This document shows positions 7,462 to 32,904 of a DNA stretch of 33,927 nucleotides, one piece after another; within the stretch, counting starts at the first letter, position 1, and the number at the start of each line of letters is the position of its first letter. Source of the DNA: a virus; IMG/VR virus record IMGVR_UViG_3300010883_008291, positions 1 through 33,927 of that record. One strand, given 5' to 3'. The position numbers and the translations under genes were made by a program. The notes below the pieces were generated by a model that was given only the letters and a program-made list of their open reading frames with translations, did not search any database and had not been told where the DNA came from.

Positions 7462-7739
7462 TGGCTCGCATTAAGAACTTCTTTCGCGCCATTGGACATA
7501 AGATCAGACGAGCATGGTATTGGATTCTAGGTCTATTTGAGAGACATCAGAACCTTTACGTATCTCATAATCAGTATAATTCTGAAGGTGAGATTATTGA
7601 CGTACTAGAGAAGAAATTTGAAGTACGCAAATTTTATAAACAAACTGCTAAACATATGCGGTTTAAAACCATGACAGGAACCATAGTTGAGCTCAAGACT
7701 GCAACTCCTATGGACTTCATGACGGAGACATTACGATGA
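7461..7739 (+). CDS. Small basic phage protein of unknown function
   Basis: 92 residues. The N-terminus is basic and aromatic (KNFFRAIGHKIRRAWYWILG), like an amphipathic membrane-associated helix, and the rest ends with a short beta-rich part (FKTMTGTIVELKTATPMD). Similar short proteins occur in marine T4-like phages as I recall. It overlaps its neighbours by 1 and 4 bases, so it is translationally coupled to the acyl carrier protein gene that follows. No function can be assigned. Confidence 0.65.
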   Translation: MARIKNFFRAIGHKIRRAWYWILGLFERHQNLYVSHNQYNSEGEIIDVLEKKFEVRKFYKQTAKHMRFKTMTGTIVELKTATPMDFMTETLR

Positions 7740-7957
7740 GTATAATAGACATATTAAAGGACAAACTAAATGTTCAGGAAGAGCAGATTAAAGATAACTC
7801 TTTAATTGTAGAAGATTTAGGAGCTGATTCCTTAAGCGTAGTTGAAATAATAATGGATGTTGAAGAGGAGTTTGATATACAAATTCCTGATGAAGATGCA
7901 GAGTTAATTTTAACAGTAAAAGACCTAGCAGATTATATAGCTGAGAATGGGTCATGA
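7736..7957 (+). CDS. acpP: Acyl carrier protein
   Basis: 73 residues, the usual size of ACP. It is acidic and four-helical, and carries LGADSLSVVEIIM at residues 28-40, with Ser32 of the DSL motif as the site for the 4'-phosphopantetheine arm. ACP carries growing acyl chains in fatty-acid synthesis and donates them to acyltransferases. The gene overlaps both neighbours by 4 bases (ATGA junctions), embedding it between a small basic protein and the spanin pair. The lipase and desaturase lie 0.9 and 2.1 kb downstream. Charging would depend on a host phosphopantetheinyl transferase. The family call is secure; its role in the phage is not known. Confidence 0.93.
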   Translation: MSIIDILKDKLNVQEEQIKDNSLIVEDLGADSLSVVEIIMDVEEEFDIQIPDEDAELILTVKDLADYIAENGS

Positions 7958-8833: not shown

Positions 8834-9661
8834 ATGATAGACATGCTCAGGAAGAGAGCATCTATCTTATGGGAGAGTACAATGGCACGTCAGACGAAAG
8901 GACGCATAAAAGATTCTAAAACAAAATGGGAAAGAGCCCTCATAGCAGCACAACTAAGTGCATATGCATATAAGAGCGCCGGACCTGCGGTATCAGCGGC
9001 CAAGAAACTCGGCTTTACATGGGCGAAATTACTCTCTAAAGGTGATGCAGAAGTACTTATAGCAAAAGACAGGACAGATATGTTCTTTGCATTTAGAGGG
9101 ACCGAGCCATCGAAACTCAACGACGTTCTAGCTGACCTTAAAGTAATGCAACAGACAGCACTGGCTGGTGGTAAAGTGCACTCCGGATTCAAAGAAGAGG
9201 TTGATGATCTTTGGATGGATATATTAGCTGAACTAGAAAGCAACGATCAATTAAAAGTAAGAAAAGATGTATACTTCTGCGGCCACTCACTTGGAGCCGC
9301 GATGGCGACAATTGCTACAACTCGATATTCTAAGACTGAAGAACTATTTACATTCGGATCACCAAGAGTAGGAGGGCCTAAGTTTATTAAGAACGTAACA
9401 GTTCCTCATATGAGATTTCAAAACAACAATGATATAATAACAAGAATTCCTCCAGCATGGCTAGGCTATAGACATCACGGAGCTATGATATACTTTAATT
9501 CAGATGGAGTGGTTGCTCCCAAGGCAACGTGGAAAGACCTCTTCCGAGGTATTATAAATAGTTGGAAGAGATTTAAGTTCTTTGATGGAATTGTAGACCA
9601 CGGCATCCCTAATTATGTATTTGCTATCAAAAAGATCATAAAATCAGAAAATAAAAAATAA
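8834..9661 (+). CDS. Class 3 lipase (alpha/beta hydrolase)
   Basis: 275 residues. GHSLG at 150-154 is the nucleophile elbow (Ser152). FRGT at 87-90 supplies the strand next to the oxyanion hole. D200 in NNNDIITRIPP and H256 in VDHGIP complete the triad at the spacing usual for lipase class 3, the fungal-lipase-like family that cleaves acyl esters of glycerides or phospholipids. There is no signal peptide, so it would act in the cytoplasm or after membrane damage. GGAAG precedes ATG 8834; a second ATG at 8882 is possible. It sits directly after the spanins. Family call is secure; substrate is unknown. Confidence 0.9.
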   Translation: MIDMLRKRASILWESTMARQTKGRIKDSKTKWERALIAAQLSAYAYKSAGPAVSAAKKLGFTWAKLLSKGDAEVLIAKDRTDMFFAFRGTEPSKLNDVLADLKVMQQTALAGGKVHSGFKEEVDDLWMDILAELESNDQLKVRKDVYFCGHSLGAAMATIATTRYSKTEELFTFGSPRVGGPKFIKNVTVPHMRFQNNNDIITRIPPAWLGYRHHGAMIYFNSDGVVAPKATWKDLFRGIINSWKRFKFFDGIVDHGIPNYVFAIKKIIKSENKK

Positions 9662-10103: not shown

Positions 10104-10814
10104 ATGAAGCAGACATTAAAAGCTGCAATACTGACATTAGGACAATTAACCCTAATCCCAGCAATAGTCTTATCTATACTCTATCCTCCTTCCACAGGAT
10201 GGATAGTCACAACAGTAATCTTCTCATATATATTCAGCGTCATTGGCTGGATAATAGCACAGCATAGATTATTCTCACACAAACAATTCAAAGTAAATAG
10301 ACCAACAGAGATAGTTTTATCTTTAATTGGTGTTATTGGCACATGGCAATCACCTATTGAATGGGCTGCAATCCATTTAAAGCATCACAAGCATTCAGAT
10401 ACAGAGCTAGATATTCACAGCACTAAGTATCTTGGATGGAAAAATGCTTTCTTTATATTCCATAATCCAGGCGATTTTAAAATGAGCATGGCTATTGGTA
10501 GACTAGCTAAAGATAAGTGGCATCTATTCTTAGTATATTCTAAGTATATACTCATTGCACTCTATGCTGGAATAGTATATAATATGTATAATATAGAAGG
10601 AATAATTTATCTATGGCTTGTGCCAACAGCATACAGCTTCTTATCACAAATATTGATTGTTCTCAATCATCATCAAGGTGAACCTATTAACTCTTCTTGG
10701 GTAAATTGGGTTACACTAGGCGAAGGAAATCATAAAAATCATCACGATAACGCCTCCTCTTACCAGACTGATTATCTTATCAAGCCTATCATAGATACCC
10801 TAAAAATCAGTTGA
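10104..10814 (+). CDS. Membrane fatty-acid desaturase
   Basis: 236 residues with four or more hydrophobic segments. All three histidine boxes of the membrane desaturase family are present: HRLFSH at 54-59, HLKHHKH at 91-97 and HKNHH at 210-214, the last inside GEGNHKNHH as in delta-9 type enzymes. These bind the di-iron centre that uses O2 to insert a cis double bond in an acyl chain. It is shorter than most relatives (about 300), mainly at the N-terminus. It is the last gene of the late block; an early promoter -35 box overlaps its stop codon. Acyl-lipid, acyl-ACP and acyl-CoA substrates are all possible; the ACP gene nearby is suggestive. Confidence 0.92.
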   Translation: MKQTLKAAILTLGQLTLIPAIVLSILYPPSTGWIVTTVIFSYIFSVIGWIIAQHRLFSHKQFKVNRPTEIVLSLIGVIGTWQSPIEWAAIHLKHHKHSDTELDIHSTKYLGWKNAFFIFHNPGDFKMSMAIGRLAKDKWHLFLVYSKYILIALYAGIVYNMYNIEGIIYLWLVPTAYSFLSQILIVLNHHQGEPINSSWVNWVTLGEGNHKNHHDNASSYQTDYLIKPIIDTLKIS

Positions 10815-12340: not shown

Positions 12341-14617
12341 ATGGAAATTACTGTTGTCAAGCGCGACGGAAAGCGAGAGCCTCTCAATATTGAGAAGTTT
12401 CATCGAGTAGTCGAATACGCATGTGAAGGAATCACTGGAGTCTCGAGCTCCCAAGTAGAATTGAAATCTCATATCCAATTCTATGATAAGATAACATCAG
12501 AAGAAATTCAAGAAACAATTATTAAAGCAGCTGCAGATCTCATTGATGAGCATAATCCTAATTATCAGCAAGTTGCTGGCAGGCTTATATCATATGATCT
12601 AAGAAAGACAGTTTACAAAAAGTTTGAGCCTGTCTCACTATACAAACATGTTAATAGAATCATCAAGAAAGGGTTCTATGAGCCTGAATTATTGAAATGG
12701 TATACAAAGCAAGAATTTGAGATAATGAATCAATGGATTGATCATACTAGAGATGAGAATCTAACTTACGCAGCTATGGAACAGCTGAGAGGTAAGTACT
12801 TAGTTAAGAATAGAGCTACTGGAAGAATTCATGAGACGCCTCAAATGGCTTTCATGTTAATTGCTGCAACTCTATTCCACAAATATAATAATGGAGAGAG
12901 ATTAACTTATGTTAAGGATATGTATGATGCATTATCTAAACTTGAAATCAATTTGCCTACTCCTGTGATGGCTGGAGTTAGAACTTCAGTAAGACAGTTC
13001 TCCTCATGTGTCTTAATTGAGACAGGTGACTCCTTAGACTCTATAAATGCTACATCTAGCGCAATAGTAAAGTATGTTAGCAAAAGAGCTGGGATTGGTA
13101 TTGGTGCCGGTAAGATAAGAGCATTAGGCTCACCTATTAATGGTGGACATGCTACTCATACTGGTACTATACCATTTTTTAAAATGTTTCAATCAGCAGT
13201 TAGATCTTGCTCTCAAGGCGGAGTGAGAGGAGGAGCAGCAACCTTATACTATCCTATATGGCACTTCGAGGTGCAAGATCTTCTAGTGTTAAAGAATAAT
13301 AAAGGGACTGAAGACAATAGAATAAGACATTTAGATTATGGAGTTCAGTTCAATAAGGTATTCTATGAGAGGCTATTAAATGGACAAGACATTACGTTAT
13401 TTTCCCCATCAGATGTACCGGAGTTCAACGATACTTTCTACACCGATGTCGATAAGTTCCGTGAGCTCTACGAAGCTGCAGAGAGAAAGACTTCCATACG
13501 GAAGAAGAAAGTACCTGCGATCGAAATATTCTCATCCTTTATGCAGGAAAGGAAGGATACTGGACGTATATATTTAATGAATGTAGATCATGCTAATGAT
13601 CATAGCTCATTTATTAAAGAAAAAGCTCCTATTAGAATGTCTAACCTATGTTGTGAGATAGATCTACCAACTAAGCCATTAGAAGATATAAATGATCCAG
13701 CTGGAGAGATATCTTTATGCACATTAGCAGCTGTTAACTGGGGCAATATTAAGTCTCCAGCTGACTTTAAAAAACCAGCTGATCTATTAGTAAGAGCTCT
13801 AGATCAATTATTAAGTTATCAAGAATATCCAGTAATAGCAGCTCAAATGGGTACTAATGCAAGACGTCCTTTAGGGATAGGCATTATTAACTTTGCTTAT
13901 TGGATGGCCAAGAACAATATGACATACACAGCTCCTAATTTAGAGTTGATAGATGAGTACGCAGAAGCATGGTCATACTATTTAATTAAAGCATCAGCTG
14001 ATCTAGCTATTGAGTATGGAGCATGTCCTAAGAACCATGAGACAAAATATAGTCTAGGGATAACTCCTAATCAGACTTATAAGACAGACGTTGATGAGTT
14101 AGTTCCTCATAAAGAAAGACAAAATTGGGATGAACTAAGAGCTCAATTAAAAGAGACTGGAATAAGAAATAGTACTCTAATGGCTCTCATGCCATCAGAG
14201 ACATCAAGCCAGATCTCAAATGCAACAAATGGTATTGAACCTCCTAGAGCTTTAGTATCAGTTAAACAATCTAAAGACGGCATACTAAAACAAGTAGTGC
14301 CAGCTATAGCACATATGAAAAATAAGTATGAGCTTCTATGGGATCAAAAATCACCAGAAGGTTATATGCAGATCTGTGCTATATTACAGAAATATATTGA
14401 TCAAGGTATCAGTGTTAATACATCGTATAATCCAGTAAATTATCCTGATGAAAAGATACCTATGAGTGCTATGCTGAGAGATTTAATCCTCTTTTATAAG
14501 TATGGTGGAAAGCAATTATATTATTTTAATACATTTGATGGTTCAGGAGACGAAGAAATGCCTGAACTGCAGCAAAGTGAGATCGATGAAGATGACTGTG
14601 AAGCCTGCATTATTTAG
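12341..14617 (+). CDS. nrdA: Ribonucleotide reductase class Ia, large subunit
   Basis: 758 residues, full length. An ATP-cone-like N-terminus (VVKRDGKREPLNIEKF) is present. C223 (RQFSSCVLIE), N435, C437 and E439 (SNLCCEIDLPTKPL) and C460 (GEISLCTL) are the active-site residues, and the C-terminal CEAC pair recharges the site. The enzyme reduces ribonucleoside diphosphates to deoxy forms with NrdB. It resembles the Escherichia coli/T4 type. AAGG precedes the ATG. The last 32 bases overlap the methyltransferase gene. The glutaredoxin at 22273 is a likely electron donor. Confidence 0.97.
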   Translation: MEITVVKRDGKREPLNIEKFHRVVEYACEGITGVSSSQVELKSHIQFYDKITSEEIQETIIKAAADLIDEHNPNYQQVAGRLISYDLRKTVYKKFEPVSLYKHVNRIIKKGFYEPELLKWYTKQEFEIMNQWIDHTRDENLTYAAMEQLRGKYLVKNRATGRIHETPQMAFMLIAATLFHKYNNGERLTYVKDMYDALSKLEINLPTPVMAGVRTSVRQFSSCVLIETGDSLDSINATSSAIVKYVSKRAGIGIGAGKIRALGSPINGGHATHTGTIPFFKMFQSAVRSCSQGGVRGGAATLYYPIWHFEVQDLLVLKNNKGTEDNRIRHLDYGVQFNKVFYERLLNGQDITLFSPSDVPEFNDTFYTDVDKFRELYEAAERKTSIRKKKVPAIEIFSSFMQERKDTGRIYLMNVDHANDHSSFIKEKAPIRMSNLCCEIDLPTKPLEDINDPAGEISLCTLAAVNWGNIKSPADFKKPADLLVRALDQLLSYQEYPVIAAQMGTNARRPLGIGIINFAYWMAKNNMTYTAPNLELIDEYAEAWSYYLIKASADLAIEYGACPKNHETKYSLGITPNQTYKTDVDELVPHKERQNWDELRAQLKETGIRNSTLMALMPSETSSQISNATNGIEPPRALVSVKQSKDGILKQVVPAIAHMKNKYELLWDQKSPEGYMQICAILQKYIDQGISVNTSYNPVNYPDEKIPMSAMLRDLILFYKYGGKQLYYFNTFDGSGDEEMPELQQSEIDEDDCEACII

Positions 14618-15563
14618 ACCACACCCTACAACTGAATTTACACGAACAGGGCCTGGGAACGAAAGGCCAATCATTAAAGATGGCCCTGCTTGCTGGGAAA
14701 TTAGATGCGCTCTTGATCCAGAAAAGATGTGGGCATATGATGCTTACCTAGAGAAGTATGCTAGAGATAAAGTTGTAATAGACGTAGGGTCTGGTTCTGG
14801 TATCATGGGATATCTAGCTCTTAAACATGGAGCTAGGAAAGTAATAGCGATAGATTATAATGAAAAATATATTCCTATAGTTAAAACTATGCTGGAACAA
14901 TTTGGAGATAGAGTTGAGATAGGTCTGGATAATGCAAGAAGCTTTATAGTGCCACCTTGCGATATTATTATCCATGAGATCTTTGGTCATAATATATTTG
15001 ATGAATATGTAGCTCAAATTGCTAAGAACTTAGCTAGTCAAGATCAATTACATAAAGTAGTTCCTAAGACAATTGAATGGCATGAGATGTATTGGAAACG
15101 AGGAGTATCTCCAGGTGGCCAGAGAGCAGTAAATGCATTAGAGTATGTACCAGATAACTTTCCACTCATGGTACAAGAGTTTTTTAAAGAGTATGATGAG
15201 AAGGTTGAGAGTGTAAATGGGATATCAATACAAAACATACCGTATTATAATCCAGAATGGTTAGAGCATAAAATAGGTAAGGTTATAGGAAAGACTGATC
15301 TAACAGATTCAGATTGCCATAATATGGTCCCACCTGAGTTAAGAAGAGTTGGAGATGAAGACTTTGATCCCTGCCAGTCATACGCTTGGTTTGCTTATCT
15401 AGATGATAATATTGGTTATGGTAACTATCCTCGTCAAGGTAATAATTGGTCACCAATGCCTGCTGATTTAAATAGTAAAAATCGCTTCCTAAGTGAAGCA
15501 CAGTTTAGGGTTAATAAGAACCCGCTAAATAAAAAGAGTAAAGAATGTCCGTTTTTAAAGTAA
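14586..15563 (+). CDS. PRMT-like SAM-dependent methyltransferase
   Basis: 325 residues from ATG 14586 (14592 is an alternative). DKVVIDVGSGSGI at 61-73 is the SAM-binding motif I, and GARKVIAID at 82-90 ends with the ribose-binding acid. HEIFGHNIFDE carries E131 and E140, nine residues apart as in the double-E loop of protein arginine methyltransferases (E144/E153 of PRMT1), and KVVPKTI follows where PRMTs have a similar strand. Later, YAWFAYLD and NNWSPMPADL resemble the WF strand and the THW-loop region of the PRMT beta barrel. It would methylate a protein side chain, but the target is unknown. It lies between nrdA and nrdB, overlapping both. Family call is good, specificity uncertain. Confidence 0.75.
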   Translation: MKMTVKPALFRPHPTTEFTRTGPGNERPIIKDGPACWEIRCALDPEKMWAYDAYLEKYARDKVVIDVGSGSGIMGYLALKHGARKVIAIDYNEKYIPIVKTMLEQFGDRVEIGLDNARSFIVPPCDIIIHEIFGHNIFDEYVAQIAKNLASQDQLHKVVPKTIEWHEMYWKRGVSPGGQRAVNALEYVPDNFPLMVQEFFKEYDEKVESVNGISIQNIPYYNPEWLEHKIGKVIGKTDLTDSDCHNMVPPELRRVGDEDFDPCQSYAWFAYLDDNIGYGNYPRQGNNWSPMPADLNSKNRFLSEAQFRVNKNPLNKKSKECPFLK

Positions 15564-16636
15564 ACAATAGTCCATCAAAAGAGAGAAAAATGTTCTTTGA
15601 TGGCCAAGTCGATATCGCTAGATTCGATGATGTGAAATATCCTCAGTTTGAAAAACTAACTGATAAACAATTAGGCTTCTTCTGGAGACCAGAGGAAGTA
15701 GATATCTTACGTGACGCAAAAGATTTCAAAGCTTTGACAGCATCAGAGCAGCACATATTTACCTCTAACTTAAAGAGACAAATACTACTAGATTCTATTC
15801 AAGGGAGGGCACCTAATCTTGCATTACTACCTATCGTATCTTTACCGGAAGTTGAAACGTGGATTGAAACTTGGTCCTTCTCTGAGACTATCCATTCTAG
15901 ATCTTATACACATATCATTCGTAATATTTTTTCTGACCCTTCCGTTGTTTTTGACGGTATCTTAGACATACCACAAATAACTGATTGTGCAGATAGTATA
16001 TCACAGCACTATAATCTGTTAATGGATTTCAATGAGATGAGCACACATACAGCTAATAAGGGATACGGGTCATATAAACATAAGAAAGCTTTATGGATGT
16101 GTATTAATGCTGTTAATGCATTAGAGGGAGTAAGATTCTATGTATCATTTGCATGCAGTTGGGCTTTTGCTGAACTTAAGAAAATGGAAGGTAATGCTAA
16201 GATAATTAAACTGATAGCTAGAGATGAGAATGTTCACCTAGCGTCTACTACTTCAATGCTTAAATTATTAGTAAATGAAGATAAGGATTTTGCTAAATTA
16301 CAATTAGAATGCGCTGATGAGGTCTTAGAGATGTTTGAAGATGTCGTTAAGCAAGAGAGCGACTGGGCTGACTATCTATTTAAAGATGGTTCTATGATTG
16401 GCCTAAATGCTAATGTACTTAAAGATTATGTGCAATGGATAGCAGCTAAGAGATGCTCAGCAATCAAACTAGCTCATACGTTTAAGGGTGGTACTAACCC
16501 ATTACCTTGGACTCAGAGTTGGATAACCGGGTCGAGCGTTCAAGTCGCTCCCCAAGAAACAGAAATTTCATCATATATCGTTGGCGGTGTAAAGAAAGAT
16601 GTTGACGATAATACATTTAAAGGATTTGAACTATGA
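15545..16636 (+). CDS. nrdB: Ribonucleotide reductase class Ia, small subunit
   Basis: 363 residues. The di-iron ligands are D83, E114, H117, E194, E228 and H231, and Y121 in SETIHSRSYTHI is the radical tyrosine; this stretch matches the Escherichia coli protein. NrdB makes the tyrosyl radical passed to NrdA for each reduction. The start overlaps the PRMT-like gene by 19 bases and the stop overlaps the zinc-ribbon gene by 4. All catalytic residues are present, so the enzyme should be active. Confidence 0.97.
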   Translation: MSVFKVNNSPSKERKMFFDGQVDIARFDDVKYPQFEKLTDKQLGFFWRPEEVDILRDAKDFKALTASEQHIFTSNLKRQILLDSIQGRAPNLALLPIVSLPEVETWIETWSFSETIHSRSYTHIIRNIFSDPSVVFDGILDIPQITDCADSISQHYNLLMDFNEMSTHTANKGYGSYKHKKALWMCINAVNALEGVRFYVSFACSWAFAELKKMEGNAKIIKLIARDENVHLASTTSMLKLLVNEDKDFAKLQLECADEVLEMFEDVVKQESDWADYLFKDGSMIGLNANVLKDYVQWIAAKRCSAIKLAHTFKGGTNPLPWTQSWITGSSVQVAPQETEISSYIVGGVKKDVDDNTFKGFEL

Positions 16637-16828: not shown

Positions 16829-17248
16829 ATGTGGTTATATAATGATGAAGAGTTTGTGCTGCAAGAAGATAGCGATTGGTATGGATTTGTATATGTAATT
16901 ACTAATATGACTAACGGAATGAAGTATGTGGGTAAGAAGTTCTTCTGGTCTAAGAGAATACTACCAATAACAAAATCAAGAAAGAGACGTAAACATACTC
17001 TTAAAGAATCAGATTGGATGACCTATTTTGGATCATCTAAGCATCTTGTCGAAGACATGGAAACAGACGAGATGCACAGAGAAATTATTCACCTATGCAA
17101 ATCTAAAGGTGAGTGTGCATATATGGAAGCTCAAGAGCAATTCGATAGAGAAGTATTGCTTAGAGATGATTATTATAATGGGATTATTAATTGTAGAATT
17201 GGTGGTCCTTCAGTGAGGGATATGAAACGTGTCAAAACATCTAGTTAA
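16829..17248 (+). CDS. GIY-YIG-like endonuclease domain protein
   Basis: 139 residues. GFVYVITN and KYVGKK at about residues 19-38 are variants of the GIY and YIG strands, and a basic segment (KSRKRRKH) and SDWMTYFGSSK follow as in phage GIY-YIG proteins. Such nucleases cut DNA; some are homing enzymes, others are free-standing phage genes. No intron is evident nearby. A Glu-rich segment (YMEAQEQFDRE) may supply the metal-binding Glu. It overlaps the next gene by 20 bases. Activity is inferred only from the motif. Confidence 0.7.
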   Translation: MWLYNDEEFVLQEDSDWYGFVYVITNMTNGMKYVGKKFFWSKRILPITKSRKRRKHTLKESDWMTYFGSSKHLVEDMETDEMHREIIHLCKSKGECAYMEAQEQFDREVLLRDDYYNGIINCRIGGPSVRDMKRVKTSS

Positions 17249-18143
17249 ATATAAACCAGGACTCGGTGGTGAGTTCTTTAATTGTTTTATAAGCTATCTG
17301 AAAGGTGGCACCATGCTGGCGAATGAGCAAATGGCGCATCTTAACAGATGGTCATCAGCAAAGAATGGCCAAGGTCATCTAGATGTAGGTTGCTTTAACA
17401 GATACTACTGGCCAGAAGTATATAAAGATAATCCTAACATGCTTGACTATTACTATGATTTTGCACATCTGTTCCCAAGTATATATAATGGATCTATTAC
17501 TAACGGTCAAGGACGTGATGATCAATTTAAGGTTGGTGAATCTGTCTCAATGCATACATGGAATAAAGTTATAATTAACTATGCTGCATCACAAGGCTTT
17601 AAGAAGTGTGTAGTAATATCAGAGCATACTCCGAGTTATACTCTAGGATACTCTGTTGCTAGACATCTACGTGATATTAAGGTAGGCACAGATCCTATAT
17701 TACTTAAACAACTACAGAGAGTATGTAATTGTGATGAGCCAACAGCTTTAAGAAAGCGCGCTGGGTATGGAATTGTAGCAAGACACATATCAGAGGTGTA
17801 TTCAGATACGCTAAATAATACTGTACTCGCTAAAAAAGCTTTTAATGTGCTTGACGTCAGTTACGATGATCTATATCGTAGCGATTATAAAACATTTAAA
17901 AACATCTGCGCATTCCTTGATGCAGATTGTAGTAAGGAGCAATATAAAATTGTAGAGGAATATTCAGCTAAGAATGATAATCTGATTAGCTGGGCACTGG
18001 ATCCAATGACTTATATAACAATGAATCATGGAATTACATCGGTCGATGAGGCCAAACTTGAATACACATATGAAAAGGTGAAAAATGAAAAAGATGATAC
18101 TAATAATGGCGATGTTCTTCGCTATTCTACCAACAACGCTTAA
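17229..18143 (+). CDS. P-loop sulfotransferase-like protein
   Basis: 304 residues. The N-terminus (VKYKPGLGGEFFNCFIS) resembles a P-loop that binds a nucleotide cofactor such as PAPS. The C-terminal third (LDVSYDDLYRSDYKTFKNI, CAFLDADCS, EEYSAKNDNLI) follows the order seen at the C-terminus of sulfotransferases: YEDL, then a helix, FL, then Y..KN..LI. These enzymes move sulfate to sugars or other acceptors. It overlaps the barrel protein gene by 59 bases. The call is from pattern only and could be a related phage P-loop family. Confidence 0.45.
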   Translation: MSKHLVKYKPGLGGEFFNCFISYLKGGTMLANEQMAHLNRWSSAKNGQGHLDVGCFNRYYWPEVYKDNPNMLDYYYDFAHLFPSIYNGSITNGQGRDDQFKVGESVSMHTWNKVIINYAASQGFKKCVVISEHTPSYTLGYSVARHLRDIKVGTDPILLKQLQRVCNCDEPTALRKRAGYGIVARHISEVYSDTLNNTVLAKKAFNVLDVSYDDLYRSDYKTFKNICAFLDADCSKEQYKIVEEYSAKNDNLISWALDPMTYITMNHGITSVDEAKLEYTYEKVKNEKDDTNNGDVLRYSTNNA

Positions 18144-18675
18144 AGCAGCAGAACAGACAGAGATAGATATAAATCTGAAAGGCGATAGCCAGTTCTTCCA
18201 ATTCCGGAAGCAGATGAATGCCTATAACTGGCACTTTGAGTTCTATCAGAAGATAGGCAAGGGCTGGACTTACGGGCTAATATATCAAGGAAGAGACGGC
18301 AAAGATCTTCAGTGGCATCAGATGATATATGCATTTAAGCCAATGAACAAAGGCAAATGGATGGCCAAGTTTGAGTTTAAAGCTAACTATATTCCAGGTG
18401 ATCACTCAGTACATCCAGGACACGCTCCTGATGCTGACTGGGGCATACATCCTAGGTTCACAACTCACTATAGATTTACACCAGACACAAGAGCTAATCT
18501 TTTCATAGAGCCTAGATGGCAAGGATCTACCTATATTGGTAACAGATCCAGACTTACTATCGACCAGAAACTCAGTGATAAAGACACAGTGTCATTTGGA
18601 CTGATCAATCATGGTAATCACGATAAACTCTCTAAGGAGATTCAATATGTTGTTATGTATACGAGGAGCTTCTAA
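18085..18675 (+). CDS. Secreted small beta-barrel outer-membrane-like protein
   Basis: 196 residues. A clear signal peptide (basic MKK, hydrophobic core, cleavage after LKA at residue 21) is followed by about 175 residues with no hydrophobic helix but alternating polar/aromatic strands (for example WHFEFYQ, WTYGLIYQG, ANLFIEPRW, TVSFGLINHG). The chain ends in Phe (YVVMYTRSF), the signal used by the BAM machinery for outer-membrane proteins. An 8- to 10-strand barrel is likely. Its stop overlaps the symporter ATG (TAATG). Phage outer-membrane proteins such as Lom of lambda are precedents. It may be a channel, a receptor-blocking protein or a surface factor. Confidence 0.7.
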   Translation: MKKMILIMAMFFAILPTTLKAAEQTEIDINLKGDSQFFQFRKQMNAYNWHFEFYQKIGKGWTYGLIYQGRDGKDLQWHQMIYAFKPMNKGKWMAKFEFKANYIPGDHSVHPGHAPDADWGIHPRFTTHYRFTPDTRANLFIEPRWQGSTYIGNRSRLTIDQKLSDKDTVSFGLINHGNHDKLSKEIQYVVMYTRSF

Positions 18676-20084
18676 TGGACTTATTTCCAGTATTTGACGC
18701 TTGGGCAGGATGGGCTTTACTAGCATTGTATGCTGGTGTAGCTTTATATTTAACTAATAGATATGCAGCAGGTTTTGCAACAGACAAGGAGTCATTTCTA
18801 TTAGCAAGAAGAGATCTAGATGCTAAGCAAGGCTCATTATCTATCGCAGCTGCTTGGTTATGGGCACCAGGACTGTTTATATCAGCACAACAAGCTTATA
18901 TTAATGGATTAGTAGGACTATTCTGGTTCTGCTTAGGTAACTTTATCACATTAGGATTGTTCTCAATATTCGCTAAGAAGATTCGGGCCAGTCAACCAGA
19001 TGGCTTTACAATGTCTGGATGGATTAAACAAAAGTTCTATGGGCCAGCTTATTGGTTCTATAGAGTAGAGATGCTACTACTAGCTGTATGTGCATTCGCA
19101 ATTAATTTGATAGCAGGTGCAACAACAGTTGAACTCTTGTTCGGAATAAGCTATAATTATATAACAATCGCGATGGCCGCGGTTGCATTATTATATGCTT
19201 TTCGAAGCGGGTTAAAGGCTACAGTTGTTACTGAAATCATTAAAATACTTGTTGTTTGGTTCGGCGTTCTACTTCTTGTACCCCTGGTCGTTTATAATTC
19301 TGGCGGGTTGGATACTGTTATATCTGGTTTGGGAGGTCGTACGGGTGCTGGCAGTTCCATTATTGGTACTTCTTTTGCTTGGGGTGTTTTTACTTCTTTT
19401 GGTATTACTGCTTTCCTTGGACACCTTGGCGGAACTTGGCGTGATAATTCATTCTTTCAGCGTACTTTCGCTCTAAAGGAAGGATCAATCATACCTGCAT
19501 TTGTAGGAGCTTCATTCGTCTTTATTGTAATCCCTTTAATGATGGGTGTACTAGGATTTGTAGCTGCTGGTTCAGGCATGGTGATAGGCGACGAGTTCAT
19601 AGGTGTTACTAATGCTATTGTTATAGCACAGTTCTTACCGTCTCCCTTAGTAGCTTTGTTCTGCTTCATGGTATTCGCTGGGTTGATAGCTATATTAGAT
19701 AGTCAGATGGCGTCTATAACGAATTTAATTGGTAATGATTTTGCTATACCAGAACAAGCAATCTCAAGAGCCAGATATGCAATGGTTGTATTGGCAATAT
19801 TAGGAGTAATATTAGCTAACTCAGGTGTCACTATTACACAATTGTTTATATTCTTCAGCATGATGGGTGCTACATTATTCATACCATCAGCTACAGCAGT
19901 ATTTAAACCACACTTCTTTACAGGAAATGGTTTAGCTTTAGGACTAGTAGTAGGATTGGTATCCTCAATGCTAATCAAATATGGCATGGGATTAAACTTT
20001 GAAGCAACCTTAGTGGCTGTATTCGGAACACCGCTAGTATGTAAACTAGCTAGCTACTCAGAGACATTAGAAAATTATGGCTAA
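18675..20084 (+). CDS. Sodium:solute symporter (SSF family)
   Basis: 469 residues, about 12-13 transmembrane helices, normal SSF length. The segment FAGLIAILDSQMASITNLIGND (split here as FAGLIAILDSQ and MASITNLIGND) matches the conserved Ser/Thr-containing helix that forms the Na2 site, and an N-terminal FLLARRDLDAKQGSLSIAA matches the family's first core helix. SSF carriers import solutes such as sugars, amino acids, urea or carboxylates with sodium. The substrate cannot be read here; the LDS pattern is somewhat like urea/Dur3-type members. It is translationally coupled to the barrel protein. Codons at about 19216-19476 mostly end in T, unlike the A-ending codons around. Confidence 0.88.
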   Translation: MDLFPVFDAWAGWALLALYAGVALYLTNRYAAGFATDKESFLLARRDLDAKQGSLSIAAAWLWAPGLFISAQQAYINGLVGLFWFCLGNFITLGLFSIFAKKIRASQPDGFTMSGWIKQKFYGPAYWFYRVEMLLLAVCAFAINLIAGATTVELLFGISYNYITIAMAAVALLYAFRSGLKATVVTEIIKILVVWFGVLLLVPLVVYNSGGLDTVISGLGGRTGAGSSIIGTSFAWGVFTSFGITAFLGHLGGTWRDNSFFQRTFALKEGSIIPAFVGASFVFIVIPLMMGVLGFVAAGSGMVIGDEFIGVTNAIVIAQFLPSPLVALFCFMVFAGLIAILDSQMASITNLIGNDFAIPEQAISRARYAMVVLAILGVILANSGVTITQLFIFFSMMGATLFIPSATAVFKPHFFTGNGLALGLVVGLVSSMLIKYGMGLNFEATLVAVFGTPLVCKLASYSETLENYG

Positions 20085-30920: not shown

Positions 30921-31663
30921 AAAGAATACTACTTACAGGCGGAAATGGATTCATAGCATCCACTTTCTTTGAGAAATACAAAGACAAATATGATATAGAT
31001 CTGTATGAAGGATTTACATCTGACTCAAGACCTACATGGGGTGAGTATAGCATTGACTATGATATCATCCTGCACTTAGGTGCTGAAGCTGGAGTCAGGA
31101 GATCGCATGATGCTCCAGAGCTCTTCTGGGAAAGGAATGTTGTAGGAACTCAGAAGGTTATAGAGATTCAAGATGATCAGCTCAAGCCATGTAAACTCAT
31201 ATATGCTAGCAGCTCAAGTATCTACGATTGGCACATGAGCCCATATGCTACGACTAAGAAGGTATGTGAGATGATGTGTGAGAAGCTAGATGCAGTAGGC
31301 TTAAGATTCCATACAGTTTATGGGCCAAATAGCAGAAAGGATATGTTCTTTGATGCTCTACTGAACGATAAGATTAAATATGTAACAGATCATACTAGAG
31401 ATTGGACACACGTTGATGACGTCTGTACAGCAATCGATATTATAATAGAAAAAGGCAGACATCTAAGAGGAGCGATAGATGTAGGCACCGGATTCCCTGT
31501 CAGCGTAGCTGATATGGTTAAGCATTTCGGAAAAGGACCATTCCCAGTGAAGAAGGTCACAGGTGAGCGTGAACACACTCATGCAAGGCCTGTTGAGCTA
31601 CTTGATCTAGGATGGACACCAGCTCATCATATACTAACGGAGAAACTAAAAGACTATGTATAA
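30917..31663 (+). CDS. NAD-dependent sugar epimerase/dehydratase (extended SDR)
   Basis: 248 residues. GGNGFIAS (8-15) binds NAD; SSSSIYD and SPYATTKK hold the Ser/Tyr110/Lys114 triad; FHTVYGPNSRKDM is the conserved R-x-x-N/YGP segment of extended SDRs, and WTHVDDV follows. Such enzymes change nucleotide sugars. It is shorter than typical relatives (about 310), mainly in the C-terminal part. It may supply sugars for the two phage glycosyltransferases. Overlaps the endolysin by 4 bases and rpsU by 8. Confidence 0.87.
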   Translation: MKRILLTGGNGFIASTFFEKYKDKYDIDLYEGFTSDSRPTWGEYSIDYDIILHLGAEAGVRRSHDAPELFWERNVVGTQKVIEIQDDQLKPCKLIYASSSSIYDWHMSPYATTKKVCEMMCEKLDAVGLRFHTVYGPNSRKDMFFDALLNDKIKYVTDHTRDWTHVDDVCTAIDIIIEKGRHLRGAIDVGTGFPVSVADMVKHFGKGPFPVKKVTGEREHTHARPVELLDLGWTPAHHILTEKLKDYV

Positions 31664-31961
31664 AAGCGATAAACCAAGAGGAAATTTCAACGCCAACAAC
31701 CGCACAGGTGGAGGGTATAGAAATAAGTTCCAGAAGAAGCATGATGGTCCGCCTCCTTTTGATGTGCTGTTAAGACAGTTCAAGAAGAAAGTTGAACGAT
31801 CAGGTCTTTTAAAGGATTTAAAGAAGTATGAGTTTTATGAGAAGCCAGCTCAAAAGAGAAGGCGTAAGAAAGATGAAGCTATCCGAAGAAATAAGAAAGA
31901 GCTAAGAATGGAAGCTCAGGCTTTTGATAGAGGCCGCCAGAGATCTAATCGCTTACAATAG
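31656..31961 (+). CDS. rpsU: Ribosomal protein bS21 with extensions
   Basis: 101 residues; bS21 is usually about 60-71. Residues 35-82 match bS21: FDVLLRQFKKKVERSG, LLKDLKKYEFYEKPAQKRRR and KKDEAIRR. The 33-residue N-terminal part is Gly/Asn/Arg-rich and disordered, and about 18 residues are added at the C-terminus. bS21 sits on the 30S platform near the anti-Shine-Dalgarno end of 16S rRNA and helps mRNA selection. Phage bS21 is known, notably in the SAR11 phage HTVC008M. The 3' end overlaps a small minus-strand ORF by 17 bases. Confidence 0.9.
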   Translation: MYKSDKPRGNFNANNRTGGGYRNKFQKKHDGPPPFDVLLRQFKKKVERSGLLKDLKKYEFYEKPAQKRRRKKDEAIRRNKKELRMEAQAFDRGRQRSNRLQ

Positions 31962-32319: not shown

Positions 32320-32594
32320 GATGGTATGACAGAAGAGGCCTCAGCAGATACTATCAACTAGGCAAGAAGCAGTTCAGAGGAATAGGCCTAAAGAACAAAG
32401 GCGTTAATTTCTCGCTTGTAGATACTGCTCTATCAACCCTAATTAACTTTACGGTGAACGTAGCACTGTTAACCTTTATAGCCTATAAAGGACTGAGTCC
32501 AATAGAAGGATCAGTTGTAGCTACTGTCATCTTTTTCACCCTAGCCATCGCTCGTAAGACATGGCTGTTTAACAGGTATCACAATAATGGCTAA
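32316..32594 (+). CDS. Small two-span membrane protein (DUF7220-like)
   Basis: 92 residues. A basic N-terminal 30 residues (RWYDRRGLSRYYQLGKKQFR) is followed by FSLVDTALSTLINFTVN and a first hydrophobic helix (about 40-60), then a second (about 66-82) and a basic end (ARKTWLFNRYH). This resembles short marine-phage membrane proteins I recall as DUF7220. Starts inside the ribbon-helix-helix gene (ATGA). Function unknown. Confidence 0.65.
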   Translation: MRWYDRRGLSRYYQLGKKQFRGIGLKNKGVNFSLVDTALSTLINFTVNVALLTFIAYKGLSPIEGSVVATVIFFTLAIARKTWLFNRYHNNG

Positions 32595-32904
32595 GCCCTT
32601 TGATAAATCAAACTATAGACCACTACCAAGACCGCTAACGATCATGAATTCACGAGTAGAAGGCCTTGGAGTTATATCTCAAGACTTTATCAAAGCAGGA
32701 GTCTACTTAGGTGAGACTCATATATGGGAAACTAACAGAAGCGAATGGATAAGAACACCGCTAGGCGGCTTCCTTAATCATTCAGAGAACCCTAATTGTT
32801 ATATCGTTACGAATGTACATTACCATTACGGTGATCAGCGAGAACTATATACAACTAGACCAATTGAACCAGGAGAGGAGATTACAGTCTACTATACATT
32901 ATGA
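32587..32904 (+). CDS. SET-domain protein (lysine methyltransferase-like)
   Basis: 105 residues, a minimal SET domain. LTIMNSRVEGLGVISQDFI is the opening strand with GLG; LGGFLNHSENPNC (residues 59-71) holds the NHS..PNC pseudoknot segment that binds SAM; RPIEPGEEITVYY (91-103) is the C-terminal GEEI.xxY strand with the catalytic Tyr. No pre- or post-SET cysteines are present. SET enzymes methylate lysine in proteins. It is one of two protein-methyltransferase-like genes here. Known in other marine phages; target unknown. Starts 8 bases inside the previous gene. Confidence 0.85.
   Translation: MAKPFDKSNYRPLPRPLTIMNSRVEGLGVISQDFIKAGVYLGETHIWETNRSEWIRTPLGGFLNHSENPNCYIVTNVHYHYGDQRELYTTRPIEPGEEITVYYTL

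Follow-up and report, generated by a model that had tools for sequence, protein, structure and literature searches.

A predicted PRMT-fold methyltransferase encoded between the ribonucleotide reductase genes nrdA and nrdB of a phage

A gene lying between nrdA and nrdB in a phage genome from IMG/VR encodes a predicted enzyme with the fold and core residues of protein arginine methyltransferases (PRMTs). The explanation we favor, to which we give a probability of about 0.6, is that this protein represents a phage branch of the PRMT fold and uses SAM to methylate a guanidino nitrogen, most likely that of a protein arginine. PRMTs are a family conserved in eukaryotes, and we found no report of a phage PRMT in the openly licensed literature of PubMed Central. 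The predicted enzyme combines the PRMT fold and core residues, with some residue changes, in a phage setting.

The window, by which we mean the whole 33,927-base stretch that was analyzed, is an IMG/VR record of a virus of bacteria. The open reading frame at 14586-15563 (+) encodes 325 aa and contains every motif quoted in an earlier sequence-only reading of this DNA (DKVVIDVGSGSGI, GARKVIAID, HEIFGHNIFDE, YAWFAYLD and NNWSPMPADL). That reading had placed the gene between nrdA and nrdB, overlapping both, and the Pfam and PHROGs matches of the flanking genes bear this out (Table 1). Its reading frame stands and its start is to be revised: the ATG at 14592 ("MTV...") is likely preferable to 14586, six bases upstream in frame, because two relatives point to it; the product is then 323 aa long. 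L001, the one relative retrieved by a close-range scan of IMG/VR (34% identical, likewise between nrdA and nrdB), uses the homologous ATG as its start, with AAGGAG ahead of it, and L179 shows an ATG in the corresponding position. Given the gene overlaps, the methyltransferase is probably co-translated with NrdA and NrdB, and the enzyme would therefore be made alongside the nucleotide-synthesis genes. The window NrdA has an intact C-terminal CxxC tail, and NrdB is nearest to the NrdB of large myoviruses (for example XbC2 and GAP32, 60-61%). Shortly 3' of nrdB lies a SegE-like GIY-YIG endonuclease (16829-17248; PF19835), a family for which the PHROG 447 label, NAD synthetase, looks wrong.

Table 1. 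Coordinates of the nrd locus and of the methyltransferase motifs in the window
Feature	Position	Strand	Basis or remark
nrdA	12341..14617	+	Class Ia ribonucleotide reductase large subunit; PF02867 8e-123, phrog_84 E=0
nrdA-end/methyltransferase-start overlap	14592..14617	+	26 nt; equal length in L001 and L179
PRMT-fold SAM-dependent methyltransferase (P0001), predicted	14592..15563	+	Sequence profiles, predicted fold
DPEKMWAY, residues 44-51	14715..14738	+	Putative counterpart of PRMT helix motif D..RT..Y
DKVVIDVGSGSGI, residues 61-73	14766..14804	+	SAM-binding motif I (definition PMC8619983)
KVIAID, residues 85-90	14838..14855	+	Post-motif I acidic residue Asp90
Double-E hairpin E131-IFGHNIFD-E140	14976..15005	+	HMMER alignment to CARM1/PRMT1 double-E loop
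Predicted C-terminal barrel region, ~residues 162-307	15069..15506	+	AlphaFold model; VIA-align ranges 30-302/307
NNW, residues 286-288	15441..15449	+	Putative counterpart of PRMT THW loop
Methyltransferase-end/nrdB-start overlap	15545..15563	+	19 nt; equal length in L001 and L179
nrdB	15545..16636	+	Class Ia ribonucleotide reductase small subunit; PF00268 1.7e-46, phrog_86 7e-142

In sequence searches of the PDB, PRMTs came first with P0001 alone (1.2e-7), with the L001 protein (6e-15) and with a two-sequence profile of both (2e-17). A 39-sequence profile of the family reached 5.9e-31, all 60 matches listed being PRMTs or PRMT-like entries, and its alignment to PRMT9 covered profile positions 18-268 of 303, past the SAM core. 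When this profile was calibrated in two bacterial genomes, other methyltransferases scored at most 61 bits, with matches limited to the SAM core; a PRMT scores 111 bits. Homology searches thus put PRMTs first, rather than the small-molecule methyltransferases whose kinship would have spoken against the sequence-only reading. The Pfam barrel family PRMT_C (PF22528) had no match in the window, nor in the control genomes of that search, and did not figure in the 25 Pfam families found most often in 39 members of the phage family. We found no specific PHROGs family for the methyltransferase, and GenBank phages held no clear homologue of P0001, L001, L138, L076 or L141. Weak core-only matches in GenBank (Acinetobacter prmA, Streptococcus ubiE-like) were set aside, as were weak and partial plasmid matches, and two bacterial loci were rejected as encoding proteins that we read as TlyA-like and that match mainly over the SAM core. 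One bacterial phylum, scanned over 101 genomes without a positive control, gave no strong match, and a degenerate NYPR..NNW DNA pattern returned the known relative and chance matches only.

The predicted fold points the same way. A first AlphaFold model, built from two sequences, had a pLDDT of 44 and was discarded; a model from a deeper alignment reached a pLDDT of 73.5 and a pTM of 0.79, with pLDDT falling to 50-70 over some stretches of the barrel and to less than 50 at either end. The best 50 Foldseek matches of this model were all PRMTs (E 5e-12), as were the best 50 of VIA-align, among them T. brucei PRMT7 (Z 17.0, rmsd 3.9 Å over 227 residues, model 30-302). With only PRMTs among the best 50 of both methods and an alignment that spans model 30-302, the match takes in the barrel region in addition to the core, and the model predicts a PRMT-like barrel joined to the Rossmann core. 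Global Foldseek TM-scores to PRMTs were 0.42-0.51 with large rmsd, so that core and barrel need not pack as they do in PRMTs. The sequence-only reading had proposed this comparison, with a barrel-less fold as the contrary outcome; the barrel region was found, at moderate pLDDT and with uncertain packing. A model helix (residues 194-206) lies near the expected place of the dimerization arm, an assignment that would need coordinates. Eukaryotic PRMTs are therefore the best solved-structure matches of the phage protein both by sequence and by predicted fold, barrel region included, in agreement with the PRMT likeness first proposed. Among viral predicted folds, the closest was BFVD D6PIP9 (E 8e-17, TM 0.72 on target), and A0A6J5L7A5 from an uncultured Caudovirales phage was also close (E 2.5e-13); these entries are without name or annotated merely as AdoMet methyltransferases.

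We counted conservation in an alignment of 39 family rows, five of them from the nrd locus (group I below), with PRMT motifs defined as in PMC8619983. The loop HEIFGHNIFDE (residues 130-140) had been likened to the double-E loop of PRMT1, and the likeness holds: Glu131 and Glu140 lie nine apart, both are invariant in 39/39 relatives down to ~20% identity, the spacing of 9 is kept in 38/39, and HMMER aligns the window hairpin to CARM1 "SEPMGYMLFNERML". SAM motif I of P0001 reads VIDVGSGSG (V.DVGSGTG in the PRMT pattern), and its glycines are invariant in 39/39. The post-motif I acidic position, at the end of GARKVIAID (residues 82-90), is E or D in all 39 rows and Glu in 36; D126 and P160 are further invariant positions. 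In the helix motif, D44 is invariant in 39/39 and the window protein keeps both D44 and Y51, while the residue in the place of the PRMT Arg is Arg in 34 of the 39 rows; the remaining five rows, which are those of group I, all have Lys. NNWSPMPADL, compared earlier to the THW-loop region, may also belong there: NNW aligns with SHW in group III and with FSNTPRIGNNW in L138, the Trp being kept and the His replaced by Asn, and the group II column being of uncertain alignment. We take the L138 stretch to resemble the one preceding the PRMT1 THW loop, as a lead only. These motifs are not a product of chance, since the double-E is invariant, the gene recurs in the nrd slot of four phage lineages and the relatives are under purifying selection. 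Nevertheless, activity could be altered, because the helix Arg has become Lys and the THW His has become Asn.

Set beside PRMTs (PRMT1, CARM1 and PRMT6 of type I; PRMT7; PRMT9), the phage enzyme shares SAM motif I, the acidic post-I residue, the double-E spacing of 9, Asp and Tyr in the N-terminal helix motif, the Trp of the putative THW loop and, by predicted fold, the barrel. It differs in having Lys where the PRMT helix has Arg and Asn where the THW loop has His, in a barrel unrecognizable by sequence and in its phage-encoded nature. The mechanism that we propose is borrowed from PRMT chemistry. The architecture would consist of a Rossmann SAM core, a helix with the invariant Asp of the D..R..Y motif, the double-E hairpin and a C-terminal barrel whose NNW loop would stand in for the THW loop. 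Motif I would bind SAM, the ribose of which would lie at Asp90, while the two glutamates E131 and E140 would grip the guanidinium, a nitrogen of which would attack the SAM methyl. The acceptor would most likely be an arginine of a phage or host protein, modified during infection. The replacement of Arg by Lys and of His by Asn would preserve some polar contacts, and the rate or the product may change. We put the odds slightly above even that the enzyme N-methylates a guanidino nitrogen, probably on protein arginine.

The window protein belongs to a family that is little noticed and spread over uncultured T4-like phages. Searching with L001 as query opened this larger family, and ~70 relatives were recovered from uncultured phages in IMG/VR. 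Group I, at the nrd locus, comprises the window, L179, L001 and L138/L139/L140, in which the methyltransferase occupies the nrdA-nrdB slot of four related phage lineages; the L179 protein is 42-43% identical to that of the window and directly precedes nrdB. Group II comprises ~40 distinct proteins from T4-like phages (L080-L136), and group III (L141-L147, L164-L174) lies mostly between putative small and large terminase genes, labels that we read from sequence and gene order. Group IV (L148-L157) consists of short versions in the terminase slot that have lost the double-E and the barrel and are possibly re-purposed or decaying. In two further loci (L175:2460-4214 and L176:2469-4211), a single ORF between nrdA and nrdB joins a PHROG 2954 domain, in front, to a group III methyltransferase. 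PHROG 2954 is labelled ferrochelatase, a label that may be wrong because the domain shows, by our own reading, an HxD...H pattern as in 2OG oxygenases. In the tree, group I forms one clade (100/96) and L175/L176 group with L171/L174 from the terminase slot (100/99), which makes two or more arrivals of related enzymes at the nrd slot probable. Support for the branches that join groups I, II and III is weak and the tree contains long branches, and we therefore restrict statements to relations within groups. We consider it an even bet that the PRMT-like proteins of uncultured T4-like phages form a diverse clade of true PRMTs and that proteins in infected bacteria carry methylarginine, some of it added by a fusion enzyme with an oxygenase-like domain in the ribonucleotide reductase (RNR) operon.

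The main competing explanation is that a PRMT-fold enzyme has a small molecule or the amine of a glycan as its substrate, which we regard as unlikely, though the strongest of the alternatives. Natural-product arginine methyltransferases are known: SznE, which served as a query in PMC12637814, methylates arginine in a natural-product pathway, and guanidino-nitrogen methylation is what we predict for the phage enzyme, likened here by description. The genomic context of group II, the largest phage group, also leans this way. Its members sit in a cassette of an SGNH-hydrolase-like gene (a label read from sequence, without a Pfam match), the methyltransferase and a PIG-L deacetylase, with both neighbors present in 50/58 loci, a conserved arrangement that hints at chemistry on sugars or small molecules in group II. 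However, the cassette was not found at the nrd locus, and the window has no neighbors completing a guanidino-metabolite pathway. SznE-type enzymes lie in natural-product clusters, whereas no biosynthetic cluster is seen around the phage gene in the window.

Within the protein arginine methylation that we favor, a special case would be an enzyme that serves specifically to modify NrdA or NrdB and thereby tune the phage RNR, and this we hold to be rather improbable. The overlapping position is conserved in the window, L001 and L138-L140 and, at the nrdB end, in L179; in L175 and L176 a related enzyme, joined to an oxygenase-like domain, probably entered the nrd slot independently; and 2OG-Fe(II) oxygenases likewise occupy this slot. 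Most related nrdA-nrdB pairs, however, are without the methyltransferase. We retrieved 53 loci by the similarity of their NrdB. Where nrdA and nrdB are both present, they for the most part lie almost side by side, and tblastn detects the methyltransferase in none of these loci. A few of the 53 hold 2OG-Fe(II) oxygenases or other short genes in between: L025 and L027 have a 2OG-Fe(II) oxygenase (PF13759) there and L029 a similar ORF. In GAP32 the gene in the slot looks GIY-YIG-like and was rejected as a methyltransferase. The nrdA-nrdB gap is thus a slot for accessory genes, and the family itself is also found between terminase genes and in the PIG-L cassette. Because the family moves among slots beside core genes and the gap accepts unrelated genes or nothing, position names no substrate, and the suggestion that NrdA or NrdB is the target, drawn from gene position, is not supported. 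Nor did bS21 gain support as a target. The window's bS21 homologue (31656-31961; PF01165) has an RG/GGYR-containing N-terminal extension that is missing from the bS21 of the L138 phage, and hence there is no association between bS21 and the methyltransferase.

A decaying or non-catalytic PRMT-like protein, acting for example by partner binding only, is more doubtful still. The Arg to Lys and His to Asn changes could be read in this way, as could the truncated group IV proteins of the terminase slot and a pace of evolution far above that of nrdA and nrdB (32-43% identity for the methyltransferase vs ~76%). Against this, the protein retains motif I, the acidic residue, D44 and the two Glu. Most close pairs of relatives have a dN/dS of ~0.2, a sign of purifying selection that argues that the protein does something. 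For the L138/L139 pair, dN/dS is 0.20 for the methyltransferase and 0.02 and 0.05 for nrdA and nrdB; from its faster evolution, the partner or substrate would seem to change or to be loosely constrained. Least probable of all is a conventional class I methyltransferase akin to PrmA, RsmD or RNA-modifying enzymes, PRMT-like in the shared core only: the best Pfam and NCBIfam matches are indeed generic or PrmA (ribosomal protein L11 methyltransferase, with which the class I SAM core is shared; top Pfam match 1.5e-6), but these are weak and cover the SAM core only (residues 59-148 for PrmA; TIGR00406 equivalog 30 bits vs a cut-off of 183), whereas PRMTs outrank other enzymes in PDB searches and fold and the double-E is invariant.

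If the widespread PRMT branch in phages that we favor is real, it would add protein modification to the tools of phage takeover, could provide a deep outgroup for PRMT evolution and would offer small single-gene enzymes for studies of arginine methylation. It also makes testable whether methylarginine occurs in phage-infected bacteria.

The window carries other cargo. An acyl carrier protein (7736-7957), a class 3 lipase (8834-9661) and a fatty acid desaturase (10104-10814) occur in one stretch, which suggests lipid remodelling. A sodium:solute symporter (18085-20084; PF00474) is unusual for a phage and follows a small protein that likely has a signal peptide and is possibly an outer-membrane barrel. 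At 32587-32904, a small SET-domain protein (PF00856, 7.7e-11) constitutes a second protein methyltransferase fold of eukaryotic type in the same phage.
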